A DNA stretch of 27,101 nt from a virus: positions 1 to 27,101 of the IMG/VR virus record IMGVR_UViG_3300024273_000328. One strand, written 5' to 3'. This document shows positions 4,951 to 27,101 of the stretch, one piece after another. Position 1 is the first letter of the stretch; the number at the start of each line of letters is the position of its first letter. The notes under the pieces were generated by a model that saw only the letters and a list, made by a program, of their open reading frames with translations, was not told the DNA's origin and did not search any database. A program made the position numbers and the translations under genes.

Positions 4951-7479
4951 ATGCTTAACATACTTGACCGACAACTAAAGCTTGAGATGGACGCAAATGA
5001 CTATAGCTACGAAAGGTTAATGAAGGAAATCAAAAGCAGAATTAAGGCTGGTCAAGCAGATGAATTGGCAGAGGGACGCTTAATCCTTATTCATAGCATT
5101 AACTTACTAGCCGAAAAGATTATGGAATATTTTGATAGAGATATCAGAGGTAAGATGAAAATTGCCCGTGATATTGTTGCTATAGAATTCTACAAATCAC
5201 CTAAAGACCTAGCTTTTATTATTATTGCAACTATTGTCAGGAGTATTAGCCGTGATGTTCACGTTCCTACTATATCTCTTGTCAAGCAAATAAACAGATC
5301 GATCTACGATAGCATTTTAGTTCGTAGGCTTGATCGTGATGATAGCACCTTTGGGGCTTTTGTTGACAAACGGTTTAAATCTAGGAGCGAAACCTTTAGG
5401 AGGCGTGAGAAAATTAAGATTGTCAAACGCCAAGCAAGCTTAGTCGATTCTGATTTAGATGATGTTACAACCTACCTAGCTGGCACATTGCTAGACTTAG
5501 TAGTAAAAAGTGGTAGTAACATTATAGAAACTAAAGTAGTTTACAGCAAAGGGAGGAGAGCACACTATATAGTCTACACCGAAGAATGCTTTAGAATGGT
5601 CTTGCAATCTAGGGAGAAATTACTAGCAGACTATCGTAAGTTTCCAATACTTATAGTTAAGCCAACTGATTGGGTATCGTTTGATGGAAGCGGTGGTTAT
5701 CACAACAAAGCTATCTACCAACTACCAATCATTAAGTGCCGTACAGGCTCTAAGGCTCTGCTACAAGGCTTCTTTAAGAACTCTGATACATCTGCGGTCT
5801 ACGACTTGCTAAATACTATGCAATCAACGCCTTGGCGTATTAATAGTAGGGTCTATGGGGTGATGAATAAAGTGTTTCGTGATAACATACTTGATCCCGA
5901 AGCAATGCCTAACAATCCTTACTTACTTGGAAAGTTGCCCTATAACGAGAAGAAAGACCCAGAAGACTTTATTAACATTCACAACTATGGGGAGATAAAT
6001 ACCGAAGGCTCTTACAAAGGACTGCCTAAAGACAAGAAGATGACGCGAAAGTACTTCAAGGATATTGAAACCCAAAAGGATTTAATCCTATCTAATATGG
6101 GTAAAGCTATTATGCTAGATTTGGTTCTATTCAATGCCCGTGAATACTTAGAAGAGGAGGAATTCTTTTTCAGCTATCAATATGACTTTAGAGGCAGGGT
6201 TTATCCAATCCAACAGCACCTACAGCCACAAGGGGGGTCAGAAGTTAAGGCGCTGTTGGAATTTAAAAAGGGCTACAAGATTGAAACACCAGAACAACTA
6301 CGCTTATTTCTAATACATGGGGCTAATTGCTTTGGGTTCGACAAAGACCCATATGATATAAGAGTTCAAAAGATAAAGGAGAAAACTAATGAAATCAGAG
6401 AAATCGCTAACGACCCGATCAAAGGACAGCGGTATTGGAAAGGCGCTGACGATCCTTATCTTTACCTCGCTTGGTGCTTTGAGTATAGCGATTATCTTTC
6501 GGACAGTGTTAGTTTTCGCTCACATATTCCAATAGCTCTTGACGCTACCTGTAGTGGTATCCAAATATACTCAGGATTACTTAGGGATGCTGATGGTGCA
6601 AAGGCTGTTAATGTAATTGGAAAGGATAGGAATGATATCTATGACCAAGTAGCTAAGAAAGTAAATGGCTACCTCTATGCTGGTGATTACCCAAAGACGC
6701 TATCTTATAAAACCTCTGATAAAATAAAACATGAGGTATCAACGCAAGCTATTGCTGATAGTATCAAGGGTAAGATCACTCGACAACTAACCAAACGTAA
6801 TACAATGACCCAACCATACTCAGTCACCCGCTTTGGGATGTACGAACAACTTAAAATTGAACTATCTGATATGGAAAATGATAATAAGAGATTTTGGGTA
6901 GGTGAAACGTGGTTAGTAGCAAAGCTTCTTACAGAGCTCAACGACCGCGCTATAGCGGATGTAGTGAAAGGAGCTAGGGTGGGTCAGGAATATCTCAAAG
7001 AGGTCACACAGGACGTTGTGAGGGACGGTAAGTGGGTATTCTTTACCACACCTATTACAAACTTTCCTGTCCTACAGAAAATACACAATACAAAGCTTGA
7101 AAGGATAACCACACCAATCGGTAAACTGTCTATTAGGAAAGCAGTAACTGAGCTACATCAGATTAAAATGATTAATGGTATAGCACCAAATTTCATCCAT
7201 AGTCTTGACGCAACTTTGCTTTCCCATACTGTAGCTAAATTAAAAGCAGATGGTTGTATTGACTTTCACCTAATACATGATAGTTATGGTGTTCCTATTA
7301 CTTTTGTTGAGAATTTAAACAAACGAGTTCGTGAGGCATATATTGAATTATTTGAATGTGAGCCTCTAAAGAAGTTTATTAATCAAGTCCATCCTAAATT
7401 CGAAAAACCTGTTGACAGTATAATGATTAATACGCTAAACCTAAATGAAGTTACTGAAAGTGAGTATATTTTTAGCTAA
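4951..7479 (+). CDS. T7-like single-subunit DNA-directed RNA polymerase
   Basis: This enzyme transcribes phage genes from phage promoters and is the hallmark of the group. Its 842 residues compare with 883 in T7. DFRGRVYP (412-419) matches T7 DWRGR. LDATCSGIQ (530-538) carries metal-binding Asp-531 (T7 Asp-537). RQLTKRNTMTQPYS (611-624) carries Lys-615 and Tyr-623 (T7 Lys-631, Tyr-639). HDSYG (776-780) carries Asp-777 (T7 Asp-812). The C-terminus ends SEYIFS, aromatic like the T7 foot. All catalytic residues are present. The ribosome-binding site GAAAGG overlaps the preceding stop. Promoter specificity cannot be read directly from the sequence. Confidence 0.97.
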   Translation: MLNILDRQLKLEMDANDYSYERLMKEIKSRIKAGQADELAEGRLILIHSINLLAEKIMEYFDRDIRGKMKIARDIVAIEFYKSPKDLAFIIIATIVRSISRDVHVPTISLVKQINRSIYDSILVRRLDRDDSTFGAFVDKRFKSRSETFRRREKIKIVKRQASLVDSDLDDVTTYLAGTLLDLVVKSGSNIIETKVVYSKGRRAHYIVYTEECFRMVLQSREKLLADYRKFPILIVKPTDWVSFDGSGGYHNKAIYQLPIIKCRTGSKALLQGFFKNSDTSAVYDLLNTMQSTPWRINSRVYGVMNKVFRDNILDPEAMPNNPYLLGKLPYNEKKDPEDFINIHNYGEINTEGSYKGLPKDKKMTRKYFKDIETQKDLILSNMGKAIMLDLVLFNAREYLEEEEFFFSYQYDFRGRVYPIQQHLQPQGGSEVKALLEFKKGYKIETPEQLRLFLIHGANCFGFDKDPYDIRVQKIKEKTNEIREIANDPIKGQRYWKGADDPYLYLAWCFEYSDYLSDSVSFRSHIPIALDATCSGIQIYSGLLRDADGAKAVNVIGKDRNDIYDQVAKKVNGYLYAGDYPKTLSYKTSDKIKHEVSTQAIADSIKGKITRQLTKRNTMTQPYSVTRFGMYEQLKIELSDMENDNKRFWVGETWLVAKLLTELNDRAIADVVKGARVGQEYLKEVTQDVVRDGKWVFFTTPITNFPVLQKIHNTKLERITTPIGKLSIRKAVTELHQIKMINGIAPNFIHSLDATLLSHTVAKLKADGCIDFHLIHDSYGVPITFVENLNKRVREAYIELFECEPLKKFINQVHPKFEKPVDSIMINTLNLNEVTESEYIFS

Positions 7480-7510
7480 CTTTAAAAGAAACGACATTCT
7501 AGTTGAACTC

Positions 7511-7529
7511 TCTTTAAGAATCTTAAAGA
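7511..7529 (+). repeat. Perfect 19-nt inverted repeat after the RNA polymerase gene
   Basis: Nine-base arms (TCTTTAAGA and TCTTAAAGA) flank one central A. As RNA this could form a short A-U-rich stem, followed by TATTTTG, which is a poor U-tract. It could instead be a protein-binding operator next to the promoter at 7534. The symmetry is exact, and it sits 32 bp after the polymerase stop in a 126-bp gap. Function unproven. Confidence 0.55.
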
Positions 7530-7533
7530 TATT

Positions 7534-7576
7534 TTGACTATTACTACTAAGATAACTATAGTAGTTTATACTATAA
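7534..7576 (+). promoter_or_regulatory. Strong sigma70-like promoter overlapping a phage-type promoter core
   Basis: TTGACT (7534-7539), 17 bases, then TATAGT (7557-7562) is close to the bacterial consensus. A second inverted repeat, TATAGTA/TACTATA (7557-7563 and 7569-7575), overlaps it. TATACTATAA (7567-7576) resembles the SP6-type core. The element lies 44 bp upstream of the SSB ribosome-binding region (AAAGGAGAAAC). It probably starts transcription of the replication module; which polymerase uses it is open. Confidence 0.5.
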
Positions 7577-7605
7577 GAACTTAAAGCTATTTAAAGGAGA
7601 AACAA

Positions 7606-8642: not shown

Positions 8643-8802
8643 ACAGGACTACATTCGTGATCGTGTATCTGACCTAATGTATGAGGACAGTAGCCTAACA
8701 AGGGCAGAGGCATATGATAGAGCACTACGCGGTTATGATAAATTTTTAAATGAAGAGACATTCTTAGTTAATTCTTTTGTTGAAGAGGATGAGTATGATT
8801 AA
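8635..8802 (+). CDS. Small acidic protein between resolvase and helicase (55 aa)
   Basis: Two adjacent ATGs occur (8632 and 8635). GAGGTG upstream gives better spacing for 8635. The product, MNKQDYIRDRVSDLMYEDSS..., is largely helical and ends acidic (FVEEDEYD). It overlaps the resolvase end by 8 bp and the helicase start by 8 bp. Such linker genes are common near T7 genes 3 and 4. No function is recognised. Confidence 0.55.
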   Translation: MNKQDYIRDRVSDLMYEDSSLTRAEAYDRALRGYDKFLNEETFLVNSFVEEDEYD

Positions 8803-16705: not shown

Positions 16706-17497
16706 ATGCTGGCCTTAGTAGACGCTGATTCGCTTATCTATAAAGTTGGATTTGCAATAGAAGACAAGACGTATTGGAATGAAGCCGAAGTTATGGCTGG
16801 TATTGAACAGGAGAAAGATATTACCTACGATACCAACATAGCAGTTTGCTACACAACACTCGACCAACTTGTATCAAATATTGTATTTGCAACTGGTTGT
16901 GATTCAGCTGTTCTGGTATTCTCTGGTGGTGTTAACTTTAGATATGATTTCCCAATATCATACAAAGCTAACCGCAAAGCTTCGAGAAGACCAGAAGGCT
17001 ACGAAGAAATCTTGGCGTATGCTAGGGCCAAATACAATACCTTCACAACAGATGGAATTGAAGCTGATGATTATGTTGTCTATCTAAAAACTAAATATCC
17101 AGAGGACTATCTGCTATGTGCGATTGATAAAGATGTTCTGTATCAAACCGCAGGGACTCATTATAATTACAATAAAGATGAGGAAGTAACTGTTTCTGAG
17201 GGGGATGCGACTAGGTACGCATACTTCCAGACGCTTACTGGTGATACGACAGATGGGTATAGAGGATGTTATGGTATAGGCGCTGCTAAAGCTACAAAGA
17301 TTTTAGCTGAATGTGAGACTGACTATGAGATGTGGCAAGCTGTGTTGGAAGCTTATGAAAGTAAAGACCAAACTGAGGATGAGGCTTTATGGACTATGCG
17401 TCTAGCACAGATGCACCAATTCAACGGTAAGTCGATTGAACTTTGGAATCCGCCTGTAGCACCTGTAGATGCTACTTTGAATGAAACGACTATCTAA
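16706..17497 (+). CDS. Flap / 5'-3' exonuclease, T7 gp6-like
   Basis: It removes RNA primers and degrades DNA from 5' ends. The 263 residues show the FEN pattern: Asp-6 and Asp-8 (LVDADSLIY), the basic YKANRKASRR stretch (86-95), GIEADD (117-122), IDKD (140-143) with Asp-141 and Asp-143, then the helix-three-turn-helix region GDTTDGYRGCYGIGAAKA (179-196). These acidic residues form the two-metal site. In T7 the equivalent gene 6 also follows polymerase. The start is 2 bp after the preceding stop. Confidence in the fold is high; the exact substrate preference is inferred. Confidence 0.92.
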   Translation: MLALVDADSLIYKVGFAIEDKTYWNEAEVMAGIEQEKDITYDTNIAVCYTTLDQLVSNIVFATGCDSAVLVFSGGVNFRYDFPISYKANRKASRRPEGYEEILAYARAKYNTFTTDGIEADDYVVYLKTKYPEDYLLCAIDKDVLYQTAGTHYNYNKDEEVTVSEGDATRYAYFQTLTGDTTDGYRGCYGIGAAKATKILAECETDYEMWQAVLEAYESKDQTEDEALWTMRLAQMHQFNGKSIELWNPPVAPVDATLNETTI

Positions 17498-17533
17498 GAT
17501 AAATGGGTAATTTAATTACTCAAAGGAGTTTAT

Positions 17534-17701
17534 ATGAAGTTAGCACCTAATGTTTTAAAGCATTTGCTAGACCTTCTATTTGAAAGATACCCTAATAGTA
17601 TTCCTACTAAACCTACTACTGAGATTGAACTAAGTCGTTTAATAGGACAACAAGATGTTATTCGATTTATCGAAGAGCTACTAGAACGAAACGAAAACTA
17701 A
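17534..17701 (+). CDS. Small protein (55 aa) at the head of the structural region
   Basis: ATG at 17534 follows AAAGGAGTTTAT, a strong ribosome-binding site, after a 36-bp gap. The product MKLAPNVLKHLLDLLFERYP... ends LIGQQDVIRFIEELLERNEN, a helical protein. GQQDVI(R) near the end is a pattern I recall from small proteins preceding structural genes in related phages, without known function. Its stop overlaps the following ATG by one base. Confidence 0.65.
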   Translation: MKLAPNVLKHLLDLLFERYPNSIPTKPTTEIELSRLIGQQDVIRFIEELLERNEN

Positions 17702-18171
17702 TGTCAACTATTGAAATCGTAATGTATTCTAAGGAGTACAAAGAAGCACTAAAGGAAGTGCTTATCAAATTTAGCCAAGAATTATTTGGGGCTGGTACGG
17801 TTCATATAGATGAATTTATTGATTACCATTGGTGTGTTTACTTAGCAATGAAGGACGGTAAAGTAATAGGGTTTACAAGCTTTACGTTTAATACTTACTA
17901 TGGACTACGACCACCTACTGTTGGTAATGATTACAACTATGTATTGCCAGAGTACAGGGGTGGTAGGGCTATGTATCTACTATCTATCCAAGCTGGTATG
18001 GTGAGTGTTGAAAATAACTTACCTCTCGAACACTACTACGCTTCAGAAGCCACACGAAGACTAAGCCGCAAGATGACAGGTGTAAAAGCCTATGAAGCTT
18101 ACATTTATGATGTAGAGGAAGTTAGACGTATCTACACCAAACTACTAACCAAAGTTAAATTTAAGGACTGA
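17701..18171 (+). CDS. GNAT-type N-acetyltransferase-like protein
   Basis: The 156-residue protein has a GNAT outline: N-terminal helices, beta strands VYLAMKDGKVIGFTSFTF (about 46-63), and YNYVLPEYRGGRAMYLLS (80-97), where RGGRA matches the acetyl-CoA pyrophosphate loop (Q/RxxGxG/A). The third Gly of the classical loop is replaced by Ala. Such genes occur just before the portal gene in several T7-like phages. The acceptor could be a host or virion protein; this is not visible. The start shares one base with the previous stop. Confidence 0.75.
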   Translation: MSTIEIVMYSKEYKEALKEVLIKFSQELFGAGTVHIDEFIDYHWCVYLAMKDGKVIGFTSFTFNTYYGLRPPTVGNDYNYVLPEYRGGRAMYLLSIQAGMVSVENNLPLEHYYASEATRRLSRKMTGVKAYEAYIYDVEEVRRIYTKLLTKVKFKD

Positions 18172-18173
18172 AA

Positions 18174-18524
18174 ATGAAACAAATCCTAGCCTTTTTCGAT
18201 AATATCTTTGCTAACTTCGGGCAACCACAGTTCGCCCATGTTAACGGTTTCAAATTTGATATCAAACCACAAGTACAAGAAGACGAAAAACTTAAAAATA
18301 TTATGTTTAAAAAGGGTGGTACAACTGTAGTTGAGAAACCAACCTACACACCACCACCCCCTGCCCCAGCACCAGCTAGTGCTGCTACGCAAGAAGCTGC
18401 AATGACACCCGAAGAAGAAGCCAAGCGTAAACTAGAAGCTCAAAAAGCTGGCGCTAAATCTCTTCAAATCCCTGTAACTGGCGCTACAGCTGGCACAGCA
18501 CAAGTAGGCACAGGCACTGCTTAG
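18174..18524 (+). CDS. Pro/Ala-rich protein, possibly T7 gp7.3-like
   Basis: It lies directly before the portal gene, the position of T7 gene 7.3, a tail-assembly and host-range virion protein. The 116 residues have a short hydrophobic N-terminus, a Pro-Ala linker (TPPPPAPAPASAA, about 59-71), and an EEEAKRKLEAQKAGAKSLQI segment (80-99) followed by a Gly/Thr/Ala tail. The AGxKSLxI part resembles the GKKSLSV end of gp7.3, recalled from memory. Most of it is probably disordered. The start is 2 bp after the acetyltransferase stop. Confidence 0.6.
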   Translation: MKQILAFFDNIFANFGQPQFAHVNGFKFDIKPQVQEDEKLKNIMFKKGGTTVVEKPTYTPPPPAPAPASAATQEAAMTPEEEAKRKLEAQKAGAKSLQIPVTGATAGTAQVGTGTA

Positions 18525-18552
18525 TAAGTTAGAATTAGATTAAGGTATAACA

Positions 18553-20115
18553 ATGGCGGAACAAACTTTTACCGTAGAGGAGCTTTTAGTTAAGCATTCC
18601 CCTTCGCGTGAGAAGTTTTCAAAACTAGATGCAGATAGGACTTCTGTACTTGACAGAGCTAGAGAGTGCTCTAAACTGACGATCCCATCTGTAGTAACAG
18701 ATAGTGGTCACACAGAATCAGATGATTTAGACACTCCCTATCAGGCTGTTGGCAGTAGACTTGTTCACAATCTAGCAAGTAAATTACTTCTTACACTACT
18801 ACCACCTAACACCAGCTTCTTCCGTCTGTTACCAGACCCAGAAGTTATCCAGCTTGCACAACAACAACAGCAAGGTGGCAAAGATCAACTAGAGAAAAGT
18901 CTAGTGACCCTTGAGCAAGAGATTATGAAGCAGATCGAACGTGAGGCCCTACGGGTGCCTATATTCGAATCTATCAAATCCCTTATTATCTCTGGTAATG
19001 CTCTGCTATACAAAACGCAGACAGGACTTAAAAGCTATAAACTAGCAAACTATGTTATCTCCCGTGACTTTAGTGGTAATCCGATTGAGATTATCTGCAA
19101 AGAGGAAGTTACAAAAGACACACTACCAGAGGATATTCTACAGCAGATTGAGAATGACCCTGCTATCCAAGATTCAACTAGGGCTACTATCTATACCCGT
19201 GCTATTAAAAAGCTAGGTATCTGGTATGAATTCCAAGAGGTTGAAGGTATCCTTGTAGAAGGCTCAGATGTAAGCTACGGCGACCCTAAAGAACTACCAT
19301 TTATCCCCCTACGCTGGACTTCAATCAATGGTGAAAGCTATGGTCGTGGTTTGGTCGAACAGTATCTAGGTGACTTCCGTTCCCTTGAGGCTCTCTACCA
19401 ACTACTCCTAGAAGCCTCGTCTGTGATGGCCCGTGTTATCTTTGGGAAACGTGCTGGTTCTACAGTCGATGTTGATGATATCAATGGTGCTGAGAATGGC
19501 GTATGTATCCTAGGTGACTTAGAGCAAGATATCACCACCCTTCGTGTTGACAAGGGCTCTGACCTTCGTGTTCCTATGGATATGGTACAAGAGCTTACCC
19601 GTAGGCTAGAGCAAGCCTTCCTAGCGGCCTCAAGTGCCACCCGTGACTCTGAGCGTACAACTGCTACCGAAATCCGTTACATGGCAGCAGACCTCGAAAA
19701 GAGCCTTGGTGGTGTATACTCAATCCTATCGCTCGAACTACAACGCCCACTAGCTTACCAACTACTAGCCCAGACCAAAGTTGACTTGTCCTCTTTAGGT
19801 ATTGAGTTAGTAATCGTAACAGGTGTTGAAGCTCTAGGTCGGAATGTAGAACTTGACAAAATCAGACAGTTTAACCAACTAATTCAAGAGTTGGGAAGCC
19901 CAGAGATTATACTTAGCCGACTAAATGTTGGTGTGTATATTGCTAAAATTGCTAATAGTTTGGGTCTTGATACCTCTGACCTCATTAAGTCAGATGAGCA
20001 AATCCAACAGGAACAGCAAGCCGCACAACAGCAAGCATTACTACAGCAAGGCGCTGGTAGTATGGCTCAATCAGCTGGTGCTGCTGCTGGTCAACAAGTC
20101 GTTCAACAAGGCTAA
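18553..20115 (+). CDS. Head-tail connector (portal) protein, T7 gp8-like
   Basis: Twelve copies form the ring through which DNA enters and leaves the capsid. Length 520 compares with 536 in T7. Recognisable stretches include TPYQAVGSRLVHNLASKLLL (57-76), with the usual LPPNTSFFRL after it, GESYGRGLVEQYLGDFRSLE (258-277) and TATEIRYMAADLEKSLGGVY (362-381). The C-terminus is Gln-rich (EQQAAQQQALLQQ) and probably flexible. The ribosome-binding site is AAGGTATAACA. It is followed by a small gene and scaffold, as in the T7 assembly block. Confidence 0.95.
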   Translation: MAEQTFTVEELLVKHSPSREKFSKLDADRTSVLDRARECSKLTIPSVVTDSGHTESDDLDTPYQAVGSRLVHNLASKLLLTLLPPNTSFFRLLPDPEVIQLAQQQQQGGKDQLEKSLVTLEQEIMKQIEREALRVPIFESIKSLIISGNALLYKTQTGLKSYKLANYVISRDFSGNPIEIICKEEVTKDTLPEDILQQIENDPAIQDSTRATIYTRAIKKLGIWYEFQEVEGILVEGSDVSYGDPKELPFIPLRWTSINGESYGRGLVEQYLGDFRSLEALYQLLLEASSVMARVIFGKRAGSTVDVDDINGAENGVCILGDLEQDITTLRVDKGSDLRVPMDMVQELTRRLEQAFLAASSATRDSERTTATEIRYMAADLEKSLGGVYSILSLELQRPLAYQLLAQTKVDLSSLGIELVIVTGVEALGRNVELDKIRQFNQLIQELGSPEIILSRLNVGVYIAKIANSLGLDTSDLIKSDEQIQQEQQAAQQQALLQQGAGSMAQSAGAAAGQQVVQQG

Positions 20116-20135
20116 ATATTCTAAAGGAGAATTAA

Positions 20136-20330
20136 ATGGCTAAAACACAATCTCTCTACGAGCTTAAACAAGCTGGTATGAAAAAAAAGAATCCTAATAC
20201 TATTACGGATGCAGACTACTACCTACGGGATAAGGAAGAGGAAGCTTTAAGGGGATACCCTAATAGCGTCGATATGACCCCTCAAATCGCTTCACCAGCT
20301 AAGAAGCAATCCTTACCAAAGGATGAATAA
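20136..20330 (+). CDS. Small basic protein between portal and scaffold (64 aa)
   Basis: ATG at 20136 follows AAAGGAGAATTAA, a strong ribosome-binding site. The product MAKTQSLYELKQAGMKKKNP... is charged, Lys-rich and has no membrane segment. A PQIASPAKKQSLP stretch near the end suggests disorder. T7 has no gene here. Its position suggests a minor virion or assembly factor, but this is inference. The next start comes 2 bp later. Confidence 0.65.
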   Translation: MAKTQSLYELKQAGMKKKNPNTITDADYYLRDKEEEALRGYPNSVDMTPQIASPAKKQSLPKDE

Positions 20331-20332
20331 GT

Positions 20333-21175
20333 ATGGATGAAAATGCACCACAAGTAGAAGGTGAAGTTGCCCAAGAAGCTGATGTTTCTGGGCAACCACA
20401 ACTTTCTGATCGTGAGCGTGTAGAGCAAGAGGCTATCCAACGCTATCGTGAGTCACAAAAGACAAGCGATGAGAAAGCTGCGGGTATGCCTGATGGCTAC
20501 AACGATGACGGCACACAGAAAGAAGACTTAATTGCTGGTAAGTTCAAGTCACAAGAGGAACTCTTGAAGGCTTACAAAGAACTCGAAAGCAAGCTAGGTA
20601 AACCTAAAGAAGAATCTACCGACAAACCAGCAGATAAAGTAGAGGAAGCGCCTACAGAGGCAGCTGCTAATCTACAGGTTGCAAAGTATGAACAAGAATT
20701 TGTTGATAATGGTAGTCTTTCTGATAAGTCTTACGGCGACCTCGAAAAGATGGGGTTCACTAAGCAACAGGTTGACCAGTATATTCAAGGCCAACAATCA
20801 TATGCCAATAATATGCGAGAGAGTGTTTACTCCTCTGTTGGTGGTCAAGAGGAATATACTTCTATTATTAATTGGGCATCTGAAAACTTGCCCTCAGATA
20901 TTATTAAGGATTACAACGATTCAGTCGATTCGATGAATCAGGAGAAAATACTCCGTAATCTTGAATACATGAAGTTTAAAAAAGAACAGACTGTGCCATC
21001 ACAAGCTGCACCTCGTAGGTTAGAAGGAACAGCCGCTTCAAGCGGTGTCCAGCCTTATGGTGATAAGAATGAGTGGCAACGAGCACAGACTGACCGCCTC
21101 TATGGGAAAGATGCTAAGTATACCAATATGGTAGACCAACGCTATCTTGCTGCCCGTAAAAGAGGTATTCTTTAA
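20333..21175 (+). CDS. Capsid assembly scaffolding protein, T7 gp9-like
   Basis: It guides assembly of the capsid shell and leaves before packaging. The 280 residues are acidic and Gln/Glu-rich with long helical parts. DGYNDDGTQKEDLIAGKFKS followed by QEELLKAYKELESKLG (about 54-90) is a typical phage scaffold signature. The C-terminal YGKDAKYTNMVDQRYLAARKRGIL part would bind coat protein. It lies between portal and major capsid as in T7. Ribosome-binding site AAAGGA is about ten bases upstream, within the previous gene. The stop is inside the start of a structured intergenic segment. Confidence 0.9.
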   Translation: MDENAPQVEGEVAQEADVSGQPQLSDRERVEQEAIQRYRESQKTSDEKAAGMPDGYNDDGTQKEDLIAGKFKSQEELLKAYKELESKLGKPKEESTDKPADKVEEAPTEAAANLQVAKYEQEFVDNGSLSDKSYGDLEKMGFTKQQVDQYIQGQQSYANNMRESVYSSVGGQEEYTSIINWASENLPSDIIKDYNDSVDSMNQEKILRNLEYMKFKKEQTVPSQAAPRRLEGTAASSGVQPYGDKNEWQRAQTDRLYGKDAKYTNMVDQRYLAARKRGIL

Positions 21176-21177
21176 GA

Positions 21178-21228
21178 ATTGGGGGGATTCACGTTTTGTC
21201 TCCTTTGGTGTTTCCCTCCATCCCCAAT
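21178..21228 (+). repeat. Long-span inverted repeat in the capsid leader
   Basis: ATTGGGG (21178-21184) pairs with CCCCAAT (21222-21228), and GGA/TCC can add pairs inside with a bulge. The 5' arm begins two bases after the scaffold stop. No U-run follows, so it is not a standard intrinsic terminator. It may protect or structure the capsid mRNA 5' end or mark an RNA processing site. The rest of 21229-21451 has no credible gene. Confidence 0.45.
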
Positions 21229-21235
21229 ACTATTA
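21226..21235 (+). promoter_or_regulatory. Candidate phage-type promoter core upstream of the capsid gene
   Basis: AATACTATTA at 21226-21235 resembles TATACTATAA at 7567 and AACACTATAA at 2091, all near the SP6 core ACACTATAG. Its place, about 220 bp upstream of the major capsid gene, fits the strong promoter usually found there in T7-like phages. The match is short and AT-rich, so chance is possible. Confidence 0.25.
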
Positions 21236-21242
21236 AAGGTAG

Positions 21243-21260
21243 ACAACTTAGCTAAGTTGT
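21243..21260 (+). repeat. Perfect 18-bp palindrome upstream of the capsid gene
   Basis: ACAACTTAGCTAAGTTGT is its own reverse complement. Nearby TACAG-TAT-CTGTA (21275-21287) makes a second small stem. A perfect palindrome without a spacer suits a dimeric protein-binding site better than a hairpin loop. It lies in a 276-bp gap without a supported gene, about 190 bp before the capsid start. Confidence 0.5.
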
Positions 21261-21343
21261 ATTGTAGATATGTGTACAGTATCTGTAAGACACTTAAAAA
21301 CCCTAGTAACCTTTATGCTTGTATTTATGAGTATTCTGTAGGC

Positions 21344-21375
21344 CCGTTTTCGATGATGCGTTCTGAACAAAACGG
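21344..21375 (+). repeat. Stem-loop in the capsid leader
   Basis: CCGTTTT (21344-21350) and AAAACGG (21369-21375) are exact 7-bp arms around an 18-nt loop. The A-rich stretch up to the AAGGTAATTT ribosome-binding site follows. It could be a transcript-processing stem of the kind RNase III cuts in T7, but the stem is short for that. No U-tract follows. Confidence 0.4.
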
Positions 21376-21451
21376 ATAACTTAAAGATAACTAATAAACA
21401 TAGCAATGATTACAAAATACAAACTAAATCAAACATTTAAGGTAATTTAAA

Positions 21452-22420
21452 ATGGCACTACTCGTAAATAACATCGGCAACAACTCTGCGGGAACTCGCG
21501 GTCTTCCTACTGATATGGACAACGCTCTACAAATCTATTACGGCTCAGTCTTGACTGCATTTGACCGTAAGCAGGTTTTCCTTGATCTTGTAACTACAAA
21601 GTCAATCGACAGCGGTTCTTCTATCTCTATCCCAGTTATCGGACAATCTTCGGACGCTAACACAAATACGCATGTCCCAGGAACTGAGCTCACCATGAGC
21701 ACTATCCCTGTTAAAGAGCGTATCATCAACATCGATGCTCTTGAGTATTATGCTTTGGCTGTTGATAAATTCGAAGAGAAAGTACTACACTTCGAAACTC
21801 GCGGTGAACTAGCTAAACAAGCTGGTGAAGCTTTGGCTGTTAAAATCGACAAAGCAGTTGCTGCTCTGTTGGTAACAGCTTCGCAAACTTCGGGAACCAT
21901 TGGTGGTTCGGCTGTTCAAGCTGACGGTACAGAAGTTAACAATGATGCTATCGATTCTGGCGCTACTCCTAAAGCTAAAGGCGATGCTTTGATTGAAGCA
22001 GTGTTTGAAGCTGTATCTGCTATGGAAGAAAAAGATGTATCGGGTGAGAAGTATCTAGTTGTAACTCCTCGTATCTATTCTTACTTGGCACAATCTGATG
22101 CTGTTAACAAAGACGTAACAGCTGGTACTAATGGTGGCTTGGATAAAGGCACTGTTATGGAAGTTGCTGGTATCCGCATTTACAAATCGAACTACCTACC
22201 AGTAGATTCAACAGTAAGTGTTGGTGGTACTAACAAGAAACTGAAAGCCTTGATCTTCACTTCTGAGGCTGTTGCTGTTGCTAAATTGATGGACGTTACT
22301 TCTGAAGTAAACTACATCCCAGAGCAACTTGCTACTTTGATGACCACATACTACTCGTATGGTATGGGCGTATTGAAGCCAGCTTGTTCTTGCGTAATCA
22401 CAGGCGGCACAGTCGTTTAA
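21452..22420 (+). CDS. Major capsid protein, T7 gp10-like
   Basis: It builds the icosahedral shell. The 322 residues (T7 gp10A 345) have the HK97-type outline of this group: an N-terminal arm with DMDNALQIYYGSVLTAFDRK (21-40), a GSSISIPVIG strand, then VKERIINIDALEYYALAVD (86-104), and a C-terminal VNYIPEQLATLMTTYYSYGM (285-304). Codon choice looks more uniform and C-ending (AAC, ATC, CGT) than in neighbours, fitting very high expression. Ribosome-binding site is AAGGTAATTTAAA. A long structured leader and a downstream terminator-like hairpin isolate it as a high-level transcript. Confidence 0.95.
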   Translation: MALLVNNIGNNSAGTRGLPTDMDNALQIYYGSVLTAFDRKQVFLDLVTTKSIDSGSSISIPVIGQSSDANTNTHVPGTELTMSTIPVKERIINIDALEYYALAVDKFEEKVLHFETRGELAKQAGEALAVKIDKAVAALLVTASQTSGTIGGSAVQADGTEVNNDAIDSGATPKAKGDALIEAVFEAVSAMEEKDVSGEKYLVVTPRIYSYLAQSDAVNKDVTAGTNGGLDKGTVMEVAGIRIYKSNYLPVDSTVSVGGTNKKLKALIFTSEAVAVAKLMDVTSEVNYIPEQLATLMTTYYSYGMGVLKPACSCVITGGTVV

Positions 22421-22433
22421 TCTACCCACAGGG

Positions 22434-22455
22434 CTCTCCCTCGCAAGAGGGGGAG
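22434..22455 (+). terminator. Terminator-like hairpin after the capsid gene
   Basis: A nine-pair stem, CTCTCCCTC with GAGGGGGAG, one G-U pair, is closed by a GCAA tetraloop. It begins 14 bp after the capsid stop, the position of the T7 late terminator T-phi, which partly stops phage polymerase. The following bases, TACCGTCTATG, lack a U-run, so partial termination or 3'-end protection is more likely than full termination. Confidence 0.6.
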
Positions 22456-22460
22456 TACCG

Positions 22461-22507
22461 TCTATGTATAGGAATACTGTAGGCATATGGGTATCCCTAT
22501 ACATAGA
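22461..22507 (+). repeat. Second, near-perfect 17-step hairpin after the capsid gene
   Basis: TCTATGTATAGG (22461-22472) is exactly complementary to CCTATACATAGA (22496-22507). After one A-C mismatch the stem continues ATAC/GTAT, leaving a 13-nt loop. It ends 13 bp before the tail tubular protein A start, just ahead of its ribosome-binding site AAGGAATC. It may be an RNase III-type processing site or a protective stem. The tandem arrangement with the preceding hairpin is clear in the sequence. Confidence 0.6.
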
Positions 22508-22520
22508 TAAGGAATCTAAC

Positions 22521-23087
22521 ATGACAGAAATCGACGCAATTAATAGGATGCTCCGTTACATCGGGGAACTTCCTATCCCATCAGGTACTACTATTGATAG
22601 TTTACCAGAAGGCCATGAAGCTGTTTTAGCTCGTACTATTCTAGCAGAAACTCTGCGTGAAGAGCAAGAGAATAAATTTTGGTTTAATACTTTTACAGTT
22701 ACCTTCGTACCTAATACAGAAGGTAGAATCACACTCCCAAATAACGTAATTGCTTTTGAGAGTACTCAGTACTTTAAAGAAGGTGGCGACCTTTATGATA
22801 AAACTACATTGTCCAGCGTATTTACAGAGGCTGTAGAATTAATAACTCGCCTTGAAATAACCTTTGACAACATCCCAGATATCTTTCGTACCTATATGGT
22901 ACTTGTAGCTGCTAAACACCTTCATGTTTACTTGAATGGTGATGAGACTACACAACGGGAACTAGAGAATAAAATTAATATCCAGCGTGTTAAATTAGAG
23001 CGTGAGCAACTTAAGCAATCTAAATTTAATTTGATTCGTGGGACAAGACTTATTGATCGTGGAACTAATCCCACACCAGTTATTTAG
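22521..23087 (+). CDS. Tail tubular protein A, T7 gp11-like
   Basis: It forms the ring joining portal to tail. The frame is open from 22464, but that start lies inside the hairpin; ATG at 22521 has AAGGAATC upstream and gives the family opening, MTEIDAINRMLRYIGELPI. The product has 188 residues (T7 196). Motifs include LARTILAETLREEQENKFWF (about 36-55), a W/F pattern typical of the family, and IPDIFRTYMVLVAAKHLH (118-135). Position after capsid and before protein B matches T7. Confidence 0.92.
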   Translation: MTEIDAINRMLRYIGELPIPSGTTIDSLPEGHEAVLARTILAETLREEQENKFWFNTFTVTFVPNTEGRITLPNNVIAFESTQYFKEGGDLYDKTTLSSVFTEAVELITRLEITFDNIPDIFRTYMVLVAAKHLHVYLNGDETTQRELENKINIQRVKLEREQLKQSKFNLIRGTRLIDRGTNPTPVI

Positions 23088-23096
23088 GAGCAATGA

Positions 23097-25268
23097 ATGC
23101 CTAAGATTAACAAAGTTTATCCAGCGTTTTTCAATGGCGTTTCACAGCAAAAACCTGAGCTTATTTTGGATAGCCAATGTAAAGACATGGTTAACTGTGT
23201 GCCTGATTTGGTAGTTGGACTAACCAAGCGTCCACCCGTTACTCACACAAAGACGTTTACTTATGCTACGAATCCTGAGATGGAAACATCCACTATCTTT
23301 CATACCTATGATCGTGGTGAGGATGCTGAAGAATACATCTTTATGAATTCTGACGTAGCAGATCACCCATTACACGTTTTCCATCGTGATGGTACAGAGA
23401 TGACTGTTGTATATGAGCCCTCAACAGAAACAGCTGTTAAAGCATATTTAATGAATGGCTCTCTAAAAGGCTTAACGGTACAAGATAGAACTTGGGTATT
23501 CTCTAAGACAGCTGTTATTGGCTTAGATTATGGTATTACCGCACCTTTAGATGTTAACTACGACAAAGTAGCCTACTACTGGTTAAAACGTGGTAGTGGT
23601 GATCGTTACAACCCATACAACTACGCTGTATACTTGAATGGTGTTACATATCAATGTAGCCCTAACAAGCCTAATAGTACAGATACTGACCCCGCTACAG
23701 GCTTCGAAGACTCTGACCATGCTGCAAACTACTTGCGTGGTATTATTAATGGTGTAGCTGGATTTAGTGCAGAAGCTATTGGTTCAATCCTTAAGATATG
23801 GAGAGCTGATAACGCAGACTTCACATTCAGCACATGGGACTCATGGGGCAACCAAGCTTCTGAAAGCTGGAAAGGTGCTGTGAATAAGATCACAGACCTA
23901 CCTAAAGATATGCCATTTACAGATGTATATGTAGAAATCAAAGGTCAAGAAACAAGTAGCCTTAACTCCTACTATGTTAAGTGGGCTGGTTCATCTTGGC
24001 AAGAATGCTTAGACCCAGCAGCTGATCGTGGGCAACTATCCAATATGCCTATTAAGATTGATCGTATTAGTCTTGTAGGTGGTATTGCTACCTTTAAAGC
24101 TGACCTTATCGATTGGTCACTACCTTTGGTAGGTAATCTTGATAATAACCCTGATCCATCCTTTGCTCCTACACCAGCTGGTTTAACTAGCACCATACAG
24201 GATATGTTCTTCTATAAGAATCGCCTAGGTATTGCATCACAGGATAGCATAGTTCTATCTGAGACAGCTAACTATACAAACTTCTATGTTACAAGTGCTA
24301 TTGATCTTCTTGATACAGATATTATCGATATTACAGTGGCAACTAATCAAGCTAGTAAAATCTACTATGCTAAACCTTTTAATAATTCTCTTTATATCTT
24401 TACAAAATACGCTCAATATGAGCTAGTTAATGAAGGGGCTTTTGGCCCTAATAGCGTATCGCTAAGTAACGCCAGCAACTATCCAATGTCTGTTGGTGTA
24501 GAACCAGTGGTAGTTAACGATAGTCTTTACTTCATTTCAACTACGGATAATAGACAACAACTTCGTGAGTATATTAAAACAGATAAGCTAACAGTTAAGG
24601 GTATTGATCTTAATATTAGTACACCAACTTATATGACTGTACCAGTTAAATCTCTGGTCGCTAATGGTGTGCTTGGTTATGTATTATGCTGCACTGAAAC
24701 AAACCTAATTTATCTATATAACTATAAAGAAGATGGTGAGAAACGTATTCAATCTGCTTGGAATAAATGGGAAGTTCTAAACACCTTAGTTGTTACAGCT
24801 GGTAGCTACCAATATAATGTTATTGATTCATTTGTAACTATTGCTTGTAAAACTGATGCTGAATTTAGACTGCACCAATTACAGTTAGATTACAATATTC
24901 CAAATCAAAATGTCGATAAGTCTTCCGCAGACGATATACTTATTGATCTAATACCCTATGAAGCTAAAATCATCTTACCAGATTACTACCCACAACTGGG
25001 TACTGTTAGAACACCTTTGAATAAAGTGCTTATTAAACAGATTACAATTAGTGGCGAAGGTAATTTTGATGCAGAGCTTTATCGAAGAGATTATGATAAA
25101 ACTTACTACAAATCACACACAAGCTCAATGCGAGATATGAACTTAAATGTGGCTTCTAAAGTAGGCAATGCAGTAATCACAATTAAAGATTCATCTATCG
25201 ATGATTTTATGATATCCTCAGTTGTTGTTGAAGGCTTGTTCTCTGCAACTTCTCGTGAAATGAAATAA
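23097..25268 (+). CDS. Tail tubular protein B (nozzle), T7 gp12-like
   Basis: It forms the tail nozzle. Length 723 compares with 794 in T7. The opening KINKVYPAFFNGVSQQKPEL, then CKDMVNCVPDLVVGLTKRPP (27-46), is the standard family start. The middle shows DMFFYKNRLGIASQDSIVLS (about 367-386) and TNFYVTSAIDLLDTDIID (392-409), also typical. The end, VVVEGLFSATSREMK, is short. Ribosome-binding site is TTAGGAGCA. It is followed after 9 bp by the tail fibre rather than by internal virion proteins, a change from the T7 order. Confidence 0.95.
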   Translation: MPKINKVYPAFFNGVSQQKPELILDSQCKDMVNCVPDLVVGLTKRPPVTHTKTFTYATNPEMETSTIFHTYDRGEDAEEYIFMNSDVADHPLHVFHRDGTEMTVVYEPSTETAVKAYLMNGSLKGLTVQDRTWVFSKTAVIGLDYGITAPLDVNYDKVAYYWLKRGSGDRYNPYNYAVYLNGVTYQCSPNKPNSTDTDPATGFEDSDHAANYLRGIINGVAGFSAEAIGSILKIWRADNADFTFSTWDSWGNQASESWKGAVNKITDLPKDMPFTDVYVEIKGQETSSLNSYYVKWAGSSWQECLDPAADRGQLSNMPIKIDRISLVGGIATFKADLIDWSLPLVGNLDNNPDPSFAPTPAGLTSTIQDMFFYKNRLGIASQDSIVLSETANYTNFYVTSAIDLLDTDIIDITVATNQASKIYYAKPFNNSLYIFTKYAQYELVNEGAFGPNSVSLSNASNYPMSVGVEPVVVNDSLYFISTTDNRQQLREYIKTDKLTVKGIDLNISTPTYMTVPVKSLVANGVLGYVLCCTETNLIYLYNYKEDGEKRIQSAWNKWEVLNTLVVTAGSYQYNVIDSFVTIACKTDAEFRLHQLQLDYNIPNQNVDKSSADDILIDLIPYEAKIILPDYYPQLGTVRTPLNKVLIKQITISGEGNFDAELYRRDYDKTYYKSHTSSMRDMNLNVASKVGNAVITIKDSSIDDFMISSVVVEGLFSATSREMK

Positions 25269-25277
25269 GGAATTATT

Positions 25278-27101
25278 ATGGAAACACCTTCCCGCCATTC
25301 CTTTGATCTTGATGGATCACTTAGGGTTTTCCCTATACCGTCACCAATCAAAGGCGATAATTATTGTAGACTAGAAGTTGATAATGTAATTGTAAATGAC
25401 CGTGCTAAATATGATATTGTTAATAACTCTATTGTTTTCCTTAGTGTGGCCGATGTTCCCAACGGGAGCCAGTTAGATGTACTTGTTGTACAATCTGAGG
25501 AATCCATTGGGCAACTAGCAATTTCATCTAATATGGATATTGTTGCACAAAACATTGCTAATATTAATACAGTTGGAATCAGTATTGCAGACGTTAATAC
25601 CGTTGCAGATGCTGATACTGACATTGCATTGCTTGCTGATATCCAAGATGGTACAATAGCTACAAATGCTATCACAAACGTAAATACTATTAGAGCTAAC
25701 GTAACTACGGTTGCTGGTATATCTGGTAATGTAACTACAGTTGCAAACAATAATGCTAACGTATCCACAGTTGCTGGTATAAATGCTAACGTAACTACAG
25801 TTGCTGGTATAAATGCTAACGTAACTACAGTTGCAAACAATAATGCTAACGTAACTACAGTTGCAAACAATGACGCTAATGTTACAACAGTCGCTGGTAT
25901 TTCTGGCAACGTAACCACAGTAGCTGATATTTCTGGTAATGTGACAACTGTTGCTACTAACAATGCTAACGTAACCGCTGTTGCAAATAACTCAGTTAAC
26001 ATTAATGCCGCTGTTGCTAATACAGGTAATATTAATGCCGCTGTAGCTAACACAAGCAATATTAATGCTGCTGTTGCAAATGCAACCAATATTAATACTG
26101 CCGTTGCTAATGAAGCAAATATTAATGCAGCTGTTGCTGACGCTACGGATATTGGAATAGTTGCCACTAATATTGCTAACGTAAATACAGCGGCTGGTAA
26201 TACAACTAACATAAATGCTGCTGTTGCCAATGCTACTAATATTAACGCTGTAGTCGCTGATGCTGTTGATATTGGGACAGTTGCTTCTAACATTGCCAAT
26301 GTAAATATAGCTGCTGGTAACACAACAAACATTAATGCTGCCGTTGCTAACGCTACCAATATTAACGCTGTAGTAGCTGATGCTGCTGATATAGGGGCAG
26401 TTGCTACTAATATTGCCAACGTAAACACAGTGGCTACCAACGATGCAAATGTCACAACGGTTGCTGGTATAAACGCCAACGTAACTACGGTTGCTGGTAT
26501 TTCAGCGAATGTCACCACAGTCGCAACTAACAATGCAAATGTGACTGCTGTTGGTACTAACATTGCAGATGTTTCTTTGGTTGCTGCTGAGATTTCTAAC
26601 AATAACCTACAGACAATAGCGGCTGATATTGCTGCCGTAATAACTGTAGCTAACGACCTAACTGAAGCTAGTTCTGAGATTGATACTGTTGCTAATAGCA
26701 TTGCAAATGTTGATGCTGTTGGTGGAAGTATTGCTAACGTAAACACGGTTGCTGCTAACTTAGTCAACGTAAATAACTTTGCGGATACCTATGCGATTGC
26801 GGCTACTGCACCCGCTGGTGCTACAGTAGGCGACCTTTGGTTTGATACTTCAGCACAAGCTATGAAGGTCTATGGAGATAGTGGCTGGCAGAACGCTGGT
26901 TCAAGCGTTAACGGAACAGCAGAACGTGTAACTTATACTGCTACCGCTGCTCAAACTAACTTTGCTGCAACATATGATGCTGGCTATGTAGATGTGTGGT
27001 TGAATGGTATTAAGCTTACCGCTGGTACAGACTTCACCGCAACTAATGGTACATCCATTGTGCTTGCTGTTGGGGCTGGTGCTGGTGACTTGCTGGATAT
27101 T
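25278..27101 (+). CDS. Tail fibre protein, N-terminal 608 residues (cut at the window edge)
   Basis: The frame is open from ATG 25278 (ribosome-binding site AAGGAATT) to the last base, without a stop. Residues 1-85 form a beta-rich head (RLEVDNVIVNDRAKYDIVNN...) of the kind that attaches fibres to the tail. Residues about 86-505 are a Val/Ala/Asn repeat shaft. Then come VGDLWFDTSAQAMKVYGDSGW (517-537) and YVDVWLNGIKLTAGTDFTAT (570-589), modules common in marine phage fibres. The receptor-binding tip lies beyond the window. A 468-residue frame on the other strand is a shadow of the repeats. Recognition of host surface is inferred from fibre architecture. Confidence 0.88.
   Translation, partial: METPSRHSFDLDGSLRVFPIPSPIKGDNYCRLEVDNVIVNDRAKYDIVNNSIVFLSVADVPNGSQLDVLVVQSEESIGQLAISSNMDIVAQNIANINTVGISIADVNTVADADTDIALLADIQDGTIATNAITNVNTIRANVTTVAGISGNVTTVANNNANVSTVAGINANVTTVAGINANVTTVANNNANVTTVANNDANVTTVAGISGNVTTVADISGNVTTVATNNANVTAVANNSVNINAAVANTGNINAAVANTSNINAAVANATNINTAVANEANINAAVADATDIGIVATNIANVNTAAGNTTNINAAVANATNINAVVADAVDIGTVASNIANVNIAAGNTTNINAAVANATNINAVVADAADIGAVATNIANVNTVATNDANVTTVAGINANVTTVAGISANVTTVATNNANVTAVGTNIADVSLVAAEISNNNLQTIAADIAAVITVANDLTEASSEIDTVANSIANVDAVGGSIANVNTVAANLVNVNNFADTYAIAATAPAGATVGDLWFDTSAQAMKVYGDSGWQNAGSSVNGTAERVTYTATAAQTNFAATYDAGYVDVWLNGIKLTAGTDFTATNGTSIVLAVGAGAGDLLDI
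25698..26597 (+). repeat. Thirty tandem 30-bp (decad) repeats in the tail fibre gene
   Basis: Residues 141-440 of the fibre form 30 consecutive ten-residue units, each beginning with Asn or Asp and followed by Val or Ile (NVTTVAGINA type and NINAAVANAT type). Units at 26178-26297 and 26298-26417 form a 120-bp higher-order copy, with 36 of 40 residues equal. At DNA level several 30-bp units are nearly identical. This is likely an elongated trimeric shaft that can change length by recombination. Confidence 0.9.

Follow-up and report, generated by a model that had tools for sequence, protein, structure and literature searches.

Comparison with related phages points to the leader of a major capsid gene, together with a compact hairpin of distant phages, as an overlooked control element of capsid production. 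The window is the whole stretch of DNA analysed here, 27,101 nt of IMGVR_UViG_3300024273_000328, and all coordinates refer to it. The original prediction had picked out 21176–21451 as the longest gene-free stretch and as a densely structured leader. This 276-nt gap is real, lying between the scaffold stop codon and the capsid ATG, and it is the longest gene-free stretch in the window by an ORF check of the + strand. It alone among six gaps examined has no ATG ORF of at least 25 aa on that strand; the gaps of 304, 380, and 446 nt seen with a 60-aa cut-off each hold one and therefore are not gene-free. A TTG-start frame of 66 aa does run across the gap. The leader frame 21179–21379 was rejected, as by eye it is broken in L008, L011, L014, L040, and L012. 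Elsewhere in the window, a long array of repeats with a 30-nt period (25600–26800) lies inside an ORF starting at 25278, and an antisense ORF of 468 aa overlaps it.

The genes and leader elements are listed here with the evidence for each.

20333–21175, + strand: scaffold protein gene, upstream of the leader (PF05396, E 8.8e-15)
21180–21220, + strand: hairpin P1, 21180–21187 with 21213–21220 and 21190–21192 with 21208–21210 (fold, comparison)
21198–21244, + strand: putative pseudoknot PK, loop GTCTCCTTT at 21198–21206 with AAAGGTAGAC at 21235–21244 (arm swap)
21243–21260, + strand: perfect 18-bp palindrome, able to form a hairpin, within the variable region (site of a tRNA in some relatives)
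21310–21328, + strand: left strand of helix P3, whose first half pairs with the Shine-Dalgarno sequence (arm swap, shuffled arms)
21335–21387, + strand: core domain (fold, arm swap, block order)
21339–21342 with 21380–21383, + strand: core helix A, with outer pairs 21335–21337 with 21385–21387 (fold)
21343, + strand: single C of the core, followed by the stem 21344–21350 with 21369–21375 (fold)
21357–21360, + strand: TGCG in the core loop, with the bulge ATAA at 21376–21379 (fold)
21424–21442, + strand: right strand of P3, holding the capsid Shine-Dalgarno sequence AAGG at 21439–21442 (arm swap)
21452–22420, + strand: major capsid gene, downstream of the leader (PF21703, E 2.4e-27)

Pairing within the leader

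Relatives were collected by a capsid protein search of viral contigs, which gave 57 loci. The distance from scaffold stop to capsid was measured in 53 of these and in the window; two had no scaffold gene, and 48 of the remaining 52 leaders were 204–365 nt long, the four exceptions being L050, which has a tRNA, and three loci that carry an inserted gene. Leaders were compared in 51 sequences including the window (38 distinct; three limited to 325 nt). The test set comprised 24 of 41 leaders, less than 90% identical to one another, with a few added from later searches.

Pairing was assessed by an arm-swap test, where the duplex energy of a phage's own arms (cognate) is compared with that of arms exchanged between phages in 20,000 permutations that ignore the relatedness of the phages. 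Three unrelated region pairs used as a control gave no signal. The L049 segments were mis-cut in the swap tests of P1, core, PK, and P2, and the P3 figures use the corrected L049.

Folding energy by itself is ordinary. The whole leader has a z of −0.54 and 55 of 200 shuffles fold as well, so that the folding-energy check failed and the proposed excess of stems over chance was not confirmed. On the other hand, paired changes in relatives uphold a structured leader in both the arm-swap and the shuffled-arm tests. The evidence for a structured leader is comparative. Among the stems named beforehand, the palindrome, the 5-bp stem at 21275–21287, and the 7-bp stem 21344–21350 with 21369–21375 are in the sequence as claimed; the last is the conserved core in relatives, the 5-bp stem appears by eye not to be common to them, and the palindrome centre TTAGCTAA is present in 8 of 24. 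Complementary letters exist for a long-span stem at 21178–21228 too, but in relatives this 5′ arm is kept and pairs with a 3′ arm closer by.

P1 has a pyrimidine-rich loop (21193–21207). Its cognate arms pair at −18.78 kcal/mol versus −8.65 kcal/mol when swapped among the 24 relatives (0/20000 permutations), and against shuffled arms of the same phage the mean z is −2.81, with 20 of 24 below −2. Taken as a segment by itself, P1 of the window has a z of −1.1, and only 9 of 24 segments in the window family fall below −2.0 (segment values were computed for 33 of 35 sequences, that of L208 being mis-centred). PK would join the P1 loop to a downstream strand. Its cognate energy is −8.34 versus −7.69 kcal/mol swapped (39/20000), and paired changes are seen by eye in L043 and L048. 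Judged from sequence comparison, support for PK is weaker than for P1, core, and P3.

The inner arms of the core pair at −10.89 kcal/mol as cognates and −7.95 kcal/mol when swapped in the 24 relatives (0/20000). The ordered blocks GCC..UNCG..GAYAMY occur in 20 of 24 relatives versus 0.10 expected in shuffles, the pattern having been written after seeing the same leaders. The outer helix P2 gives no cognate–swapped difference in the window family (9201/20000), because it hardly varies; a few changes in L034, L048, and the L044 group support it by eye.

P3 brings the capsid Shine-Dalgarno sequence into the structure. As a whole helix in 24 leaders it gives −9.44 versus −6.72 kcal/mol (0/20000), and against shuffled arms a mean z of −2.64, with 14 of 23 below −2. 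The signal is in the Shine-Dalgarno half (1/20000), and the inner half gives none (8882/20000). At least three of the four Shine-Dalgarno bases are paired in 23 of 24 best P3 duplexes, a count made without a null model. When ten 3′ domains were folded, the Shine-Dalgarno sequence was paired with a probability of 0.64–1.00; the value is 0.83 in the 3′ domain of the window, where only the Shine-Dalgarno half of P3 forms. Thus, within the window family only, comparison of sequences shows a conserved potential of the capsid Shine-Dalgarno sequence to pair.

The minimum-energy fold of the whole window leader pairs the P3 left strand with the PK right strand, not with the Shine-Dalgarno sequence, and a switch between these two pairings is conceivable. 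The PK strand and the P3 left strand show no covariation (6493/20000), their conserved letters being able to pair in all leaders. Pairing of the P1 loop with the Shine-Dalgarno sequence was also rejected for lack of covariation (18024/20000). By eye, L034, L035, and L048 keep P1, PK, and core and have lost P3, so hiding the Shine-Dalgarno sequence would not be the whole function of the leader.

An AUG inside P3 opens a short frame, MLVFMSIL, and such a leader peptide could control the capsid gene via attenuation or coupling. By eye, the window and several relatives have this frame open, but it is missing in L012, L013, L018, L040, L050, and L076 and shifted in others, again by eye, which leaves this mechanism very improbable.

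Core-like blocks also occur outside the window family. The capsid of Roseobacter phage CRP-143 is 44.8% identical to that of the window over 88%, and a hairpin with the loop TTTTTCTCTCCTTTT, then TAAGCCC..TACG..GGATAACTTA, precedes its gene. By eye the same arrangement occurs in nine loci found with the CRP-143 capsid, two of which have the variant GGAGAACTT, and in L196. In this group and L196, P1 grows to a long stem with z of −3.4 to −6.2 (8 correctly centred members). Here P1 covers the AAGCCC strand, and therefore the long hairpin and helix A are mutually exclusive.

A compact hairpin in distant autographiviruses

The capsid leaders of 23 other named autographiviruses were compared for a compact core, C-C[stem]tetraloop[stem]G-AYAM-Y, lying no more than about 120 nt ahead of the capsid ATG. 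The capsids of 22 of the 23 are 31.1–42.7% identical to that of the window, T7 not being among the matches listed. The strict core is found in 15 of 23 leaders, 65–89 nt before the ATG, and in 200 shuffled sets its mean number is 0.06 and its maximum 1; the motif was written after reading the same 23 leaders and was selected on its stem. It is absent in T7, ProddE, YIMV22061, S39-C11, Lo5R7ANS, LUZ100, Lau218, and HTVC025P. One core is common to three of the 15 phages and another to two, leaving 12 distinct cores. Their stem (helix 2) pairs by construction. Helix A played no part in the selection; 91.7% of its cells are paired, and it shows three both-side changes.

R1, a covariance model of the 12 cores, detects HTVC025P (E 1.4e-4), whose hairpin overlaps a small annotated ORF, and gives a weak match to Lau218 (E 2.2). 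With E up to 10 allowed, it misses the cores of the window, its family, and the CRP-143 group; its third match (L018 2602–2658, E 6) is not in a leader. Outside these leaders the strict core matches once on the + strand of CRP-143 (28609) and once on the minus strand of the window, and 12 matches occur in the 757,934 nt of loci L001–L099.

An independent test used the pattern GGCCNNNTGCGNNNGACAACC, in which pairing is not required, and scanned viral contigs with it, giving at least 120 stretches. Among the matches listed, the three N's pair to complete the stem in 113 of 120 (27 sequences). A major capsid homologue, judged with 19 reference capsids, lies downstream in 110 of these 113 and in 0 of the 7 without a full stem, both among the matches listed. 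From the compact hairpin to the estimated capsid start there are 74–118 nt (median 88; 108 measured, among the matches listed). A loop-permuted control pattern gave 21 stretches in all, 3 with a stem and 0 with a capsid. Many listed stretches are related: of the first 80, 71 were usable, and these reduce to 39 representatives at less than 80% identity. The full stems without a capsid match are L280, which ends after 47 nt, L303, which lies in coding sequence, and L323, with none in 1500 nt. L323 has core and leader, and by eye a terminase-like frame follows soon after, as if rearranged. A longer pattern in bacterial genomes matched 12 times; two matches had the stem, one before a capsid homologue (L373) and the other in a tandem repeat (L377). 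In two earlier pattern searches, 12 of 18 new loci were coding coincidences in one and 8 of 25 were capsid leaders in the other. Stem completion and position together show the compact element to be an RNA hairpin tied to the major capsid gene.

Other pairing around the compact core is less clear. A flanking helix gave 0/20000 in the swap test, but base composition can drive that test, and against shuffles its mean z is −0.76 with 4 of 39 below −2; it was rejected. A hairpin with a U-rich loop upstream of the core, in 16 of 39 versus 4.6 expected, is only suggestive.

The longer core of the window may be the same element. It has GCC, UGCG, G-AUAA, and helix A in the same order and position, with a stem that is longer and interrupted, and the strict motif and R1 miss it. 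LUZ100 has a core-like hairpin with a longer stem, GCC..UGCG..GGACAACC, which overlaps an annotated small ORF and by eye reads as an intermediate form between the compact and window cores. We infer membership of the window core in the compact class from the order and position of the blocks, from helix A with its AYAA bulge, and from the intermediate look of LUZ100.

Promoters and inserted genes around the leader

A matrix of phage-polymerase promoters was built from 7 family sites. A promoter had been among the roles suggested for the gap, besides transcript processing and a small non-coding RNA, and one for the phage polymerase is not supported, as the leader reaches a maximum of 5.1 bits versus 16.1–32.3 bits at the three best sites in the window. 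The second best is at 8745 (20.8 bits), and the other two are listed below.

7481–7507, + strand: best promoter-like site, just after the RNA polymerase gene (32.3 bits; a member of the matrix)
17476–17502, + strand: nearest upstream promoter-like site, about 4 kb before the capsid gene (16.1 bits)

A site of 9.7–31.6 bits lies 3.7–4.4 kb before the capsid gene in 8 of 14 relatives scanned, four being members of the matrix, and the upstream scan found nothing above 6.4 bits in 6 of the 14. L040 has an 11.6-bit promoter-like site 223 nt before the capsid gene; in the other relatives scanned (14 with L040) no site exceeds 4.0 bits over the 420 nt that precede it. CRP-143 repeats a promoter sequence of its own at 5120, 7596, 17391, and 41821; the match at 39673 is poor, and no copy precedes the capsid gene. 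A scan for host-type promoters over 17000–23500 found 14 versus 14.1 expected by chance. Incidentally, a similar-looking element after the RNA polymerase gene (7480–7605) was set aside, having by eye no structure in common with the leader. A stem with a GCAA loop and no U-run is seen by eye between the capsid gene and the next gene (22421–22463), a place that matches where T7-like phages end the capsid transcript.

The leader could instead act at the DNA level, for example as a promoter or a replication site. Relatives keep several short blocks almost unchanged, as would suit a DNA signal, and L040 has its promoter-like site. However, the stems vary yet stay paired, in the 27 compact sequences among the matches listed and likewise in P1, and the window leader is without the family promoter motif. 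We consider a DNA signal very unlikely.

RNA genes have entered the leader in several lineages. The variable part holds a tRNA-Arg (GCG) in L016 and L019–L021 and a tRNA-Ser (CGA) in L050 by ARAGORN; the L016 tRNA reaches the Rfam threshold and the L050 tRNA does not. L272, 1 of 71 compact leaders scanned, has two tRNAs, Arg-CCT and Asn-GTT, and this pair is all that was found in 618 kb of the 71 compact loci. LUZ100 (L223) carries a tRNA-Asn in its capsid leader. Just after its scaffold gene, CRP-143 has an abiF RNA (L101 1659–1696; RF03085, 50.8 bits with a gathering threshold of 37), which is absent from its relatives L201 and L203–L209 and may serve as a decoy or antitoxin RNA; the 53 annotated CDS of CRP-143 include none named AbiF. 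L243 has a glutamine-II riboswitch aptamer on the minus strand (2348–2401; RF01704, 37.1 bits) upstream of the core in its capsid leader. An endonuclease VII family gene lies between core and capsid in L034, L035, and L048 (PF02945, E 8e-25, in a Pfam search of L048 alone). RNA genes seem to insert repeatedly into the capsid leader.

With tRNA, abiF, and aptamer sequences in some relatives' leaders, one may ask if the leader itself releases a trans-acting small RNA. The compact hairpin, however, keeps within 74–118 nt of the capsid start (108 measured, among the matches listed), as is typical of cis elements, and such a fixed position beside one gene favours action in cis. We regard a released small RNA as unlikely.

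Transcript maturation or stability is a more substantial alternative, in which a discrete capsid mRNA is cut from a long late transcript and the leader tags or shields its 5′ end, thereby replacing the local promoter of the T7 type. It is a tentative but serious possibility. T7 has a promoter at this place, but the scan found no family promoter motif in the leader. Genes for tRNA lie inside the leaders of L016, L019–L021, L050, L272, and LUZ100, and tRNA genes in a leader would be cut by tRNA-processing enzymes, although the L050 tRNA is below the Rfam threshold. P1 is a long stem in the CRP-143 group and L196; in the window family it is short for RNase III by established knowledge. Retention of the core where P3 is lost, as seen by eye, also fits maturation.

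LUZ100 bears on maturation in both directions. Its record places promoter phi7 at 20586–20635 and the tRNA-Asn between promoter and capsid gene, and features labelled terminators T14 and T15 overlap and follow this tRNA; that they are processing ends is a guess. On the other hand, LUZ100 has the core-like hairpin despite its local promoter. The published account (PMC10134795) likewise reports a local promoter and a strong terminator around the capsid gene.

Proposed control of capsid synthesis

Our preferred reading is that the leader acts in cis and controls the capsid mRNA post-transcriptionally, the P3 gate being a local addition. We hold this reading at slightly less than an even chance. 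Comparison within the window family shows that the leader folds as RNA into the 5′ hairpin P1, the core hairpin, and the long-range P3 on the capsid Shine-Dalgarno sequence. A phage or host protein may make contact with the invariant residues of the core (GCC, the UNCG loop, and GAYAAY), and its binding or release would decide in the window lineage whether P3 hides the Shine-Dalgarno sequence. Capsid output could in this way be tuned after transcription of the long late transcript; the tuning is placed after transcription because the family promoter motif was not found before the capsid gene. Translation gating and transcript maturation are both compatible with the leader, and they may act together.

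The leader of T7 gene 10 occupies the same place between scaffold and capsid genes in the same phage family. It has the phi10 promoter and a 5′ stem with no strict core, whereas the window has the core and no family promoter motif. The MS2 coat operator and the T4 gene 32 pseudoknot, both translational operators of phage mRNAs, likewise place a small hairpin or pseudoknot ahead of a start codon and have unpaired bases that do not vary; their sequence and fold differ from those of the window leader, whose binding protein is only presumed here.

Database and literature searches gave no name for the element. Rfam 15 has no match for the window at gathering thresholds and none for 21100–21520 at E up to 10. 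Among 20 loci of the window family and CRP-143 group it finds only the L016 tRNA, and among 20 loci with or near a compact core only tRNA and the glutamine-II aptamer. Letters resembling a Pistol ribozyme, noticed in the CRP-143 group, were dismissed, as L101 and L208 have no such Rfam match. The literature searched gave no description of the capsid-leader element.

We would put it at an even chance that an ancient and undescribed class of cis-regulatory RNA controls major capsid synthesis across a large part of the Autographiviridae, including phages of Pelagibacter, roseobacters, and cyanobacteria. One conserved factor would be recruited to the UNCG hairpin with its AYAM bulge, and in some lineages the leader would have come to accept insertions of tRNAs, a defence-related RNA, and a riboswitch aptamer. 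Few products of such phages are as abundant as the major capsid protein. If the reading is true, an RNA signal at a fixed place before the capsid gene in many lineages of the family would be a shared post-transcriptional step of virion production that ordinary reporters could test, and it would offer a handle for finding its partner.
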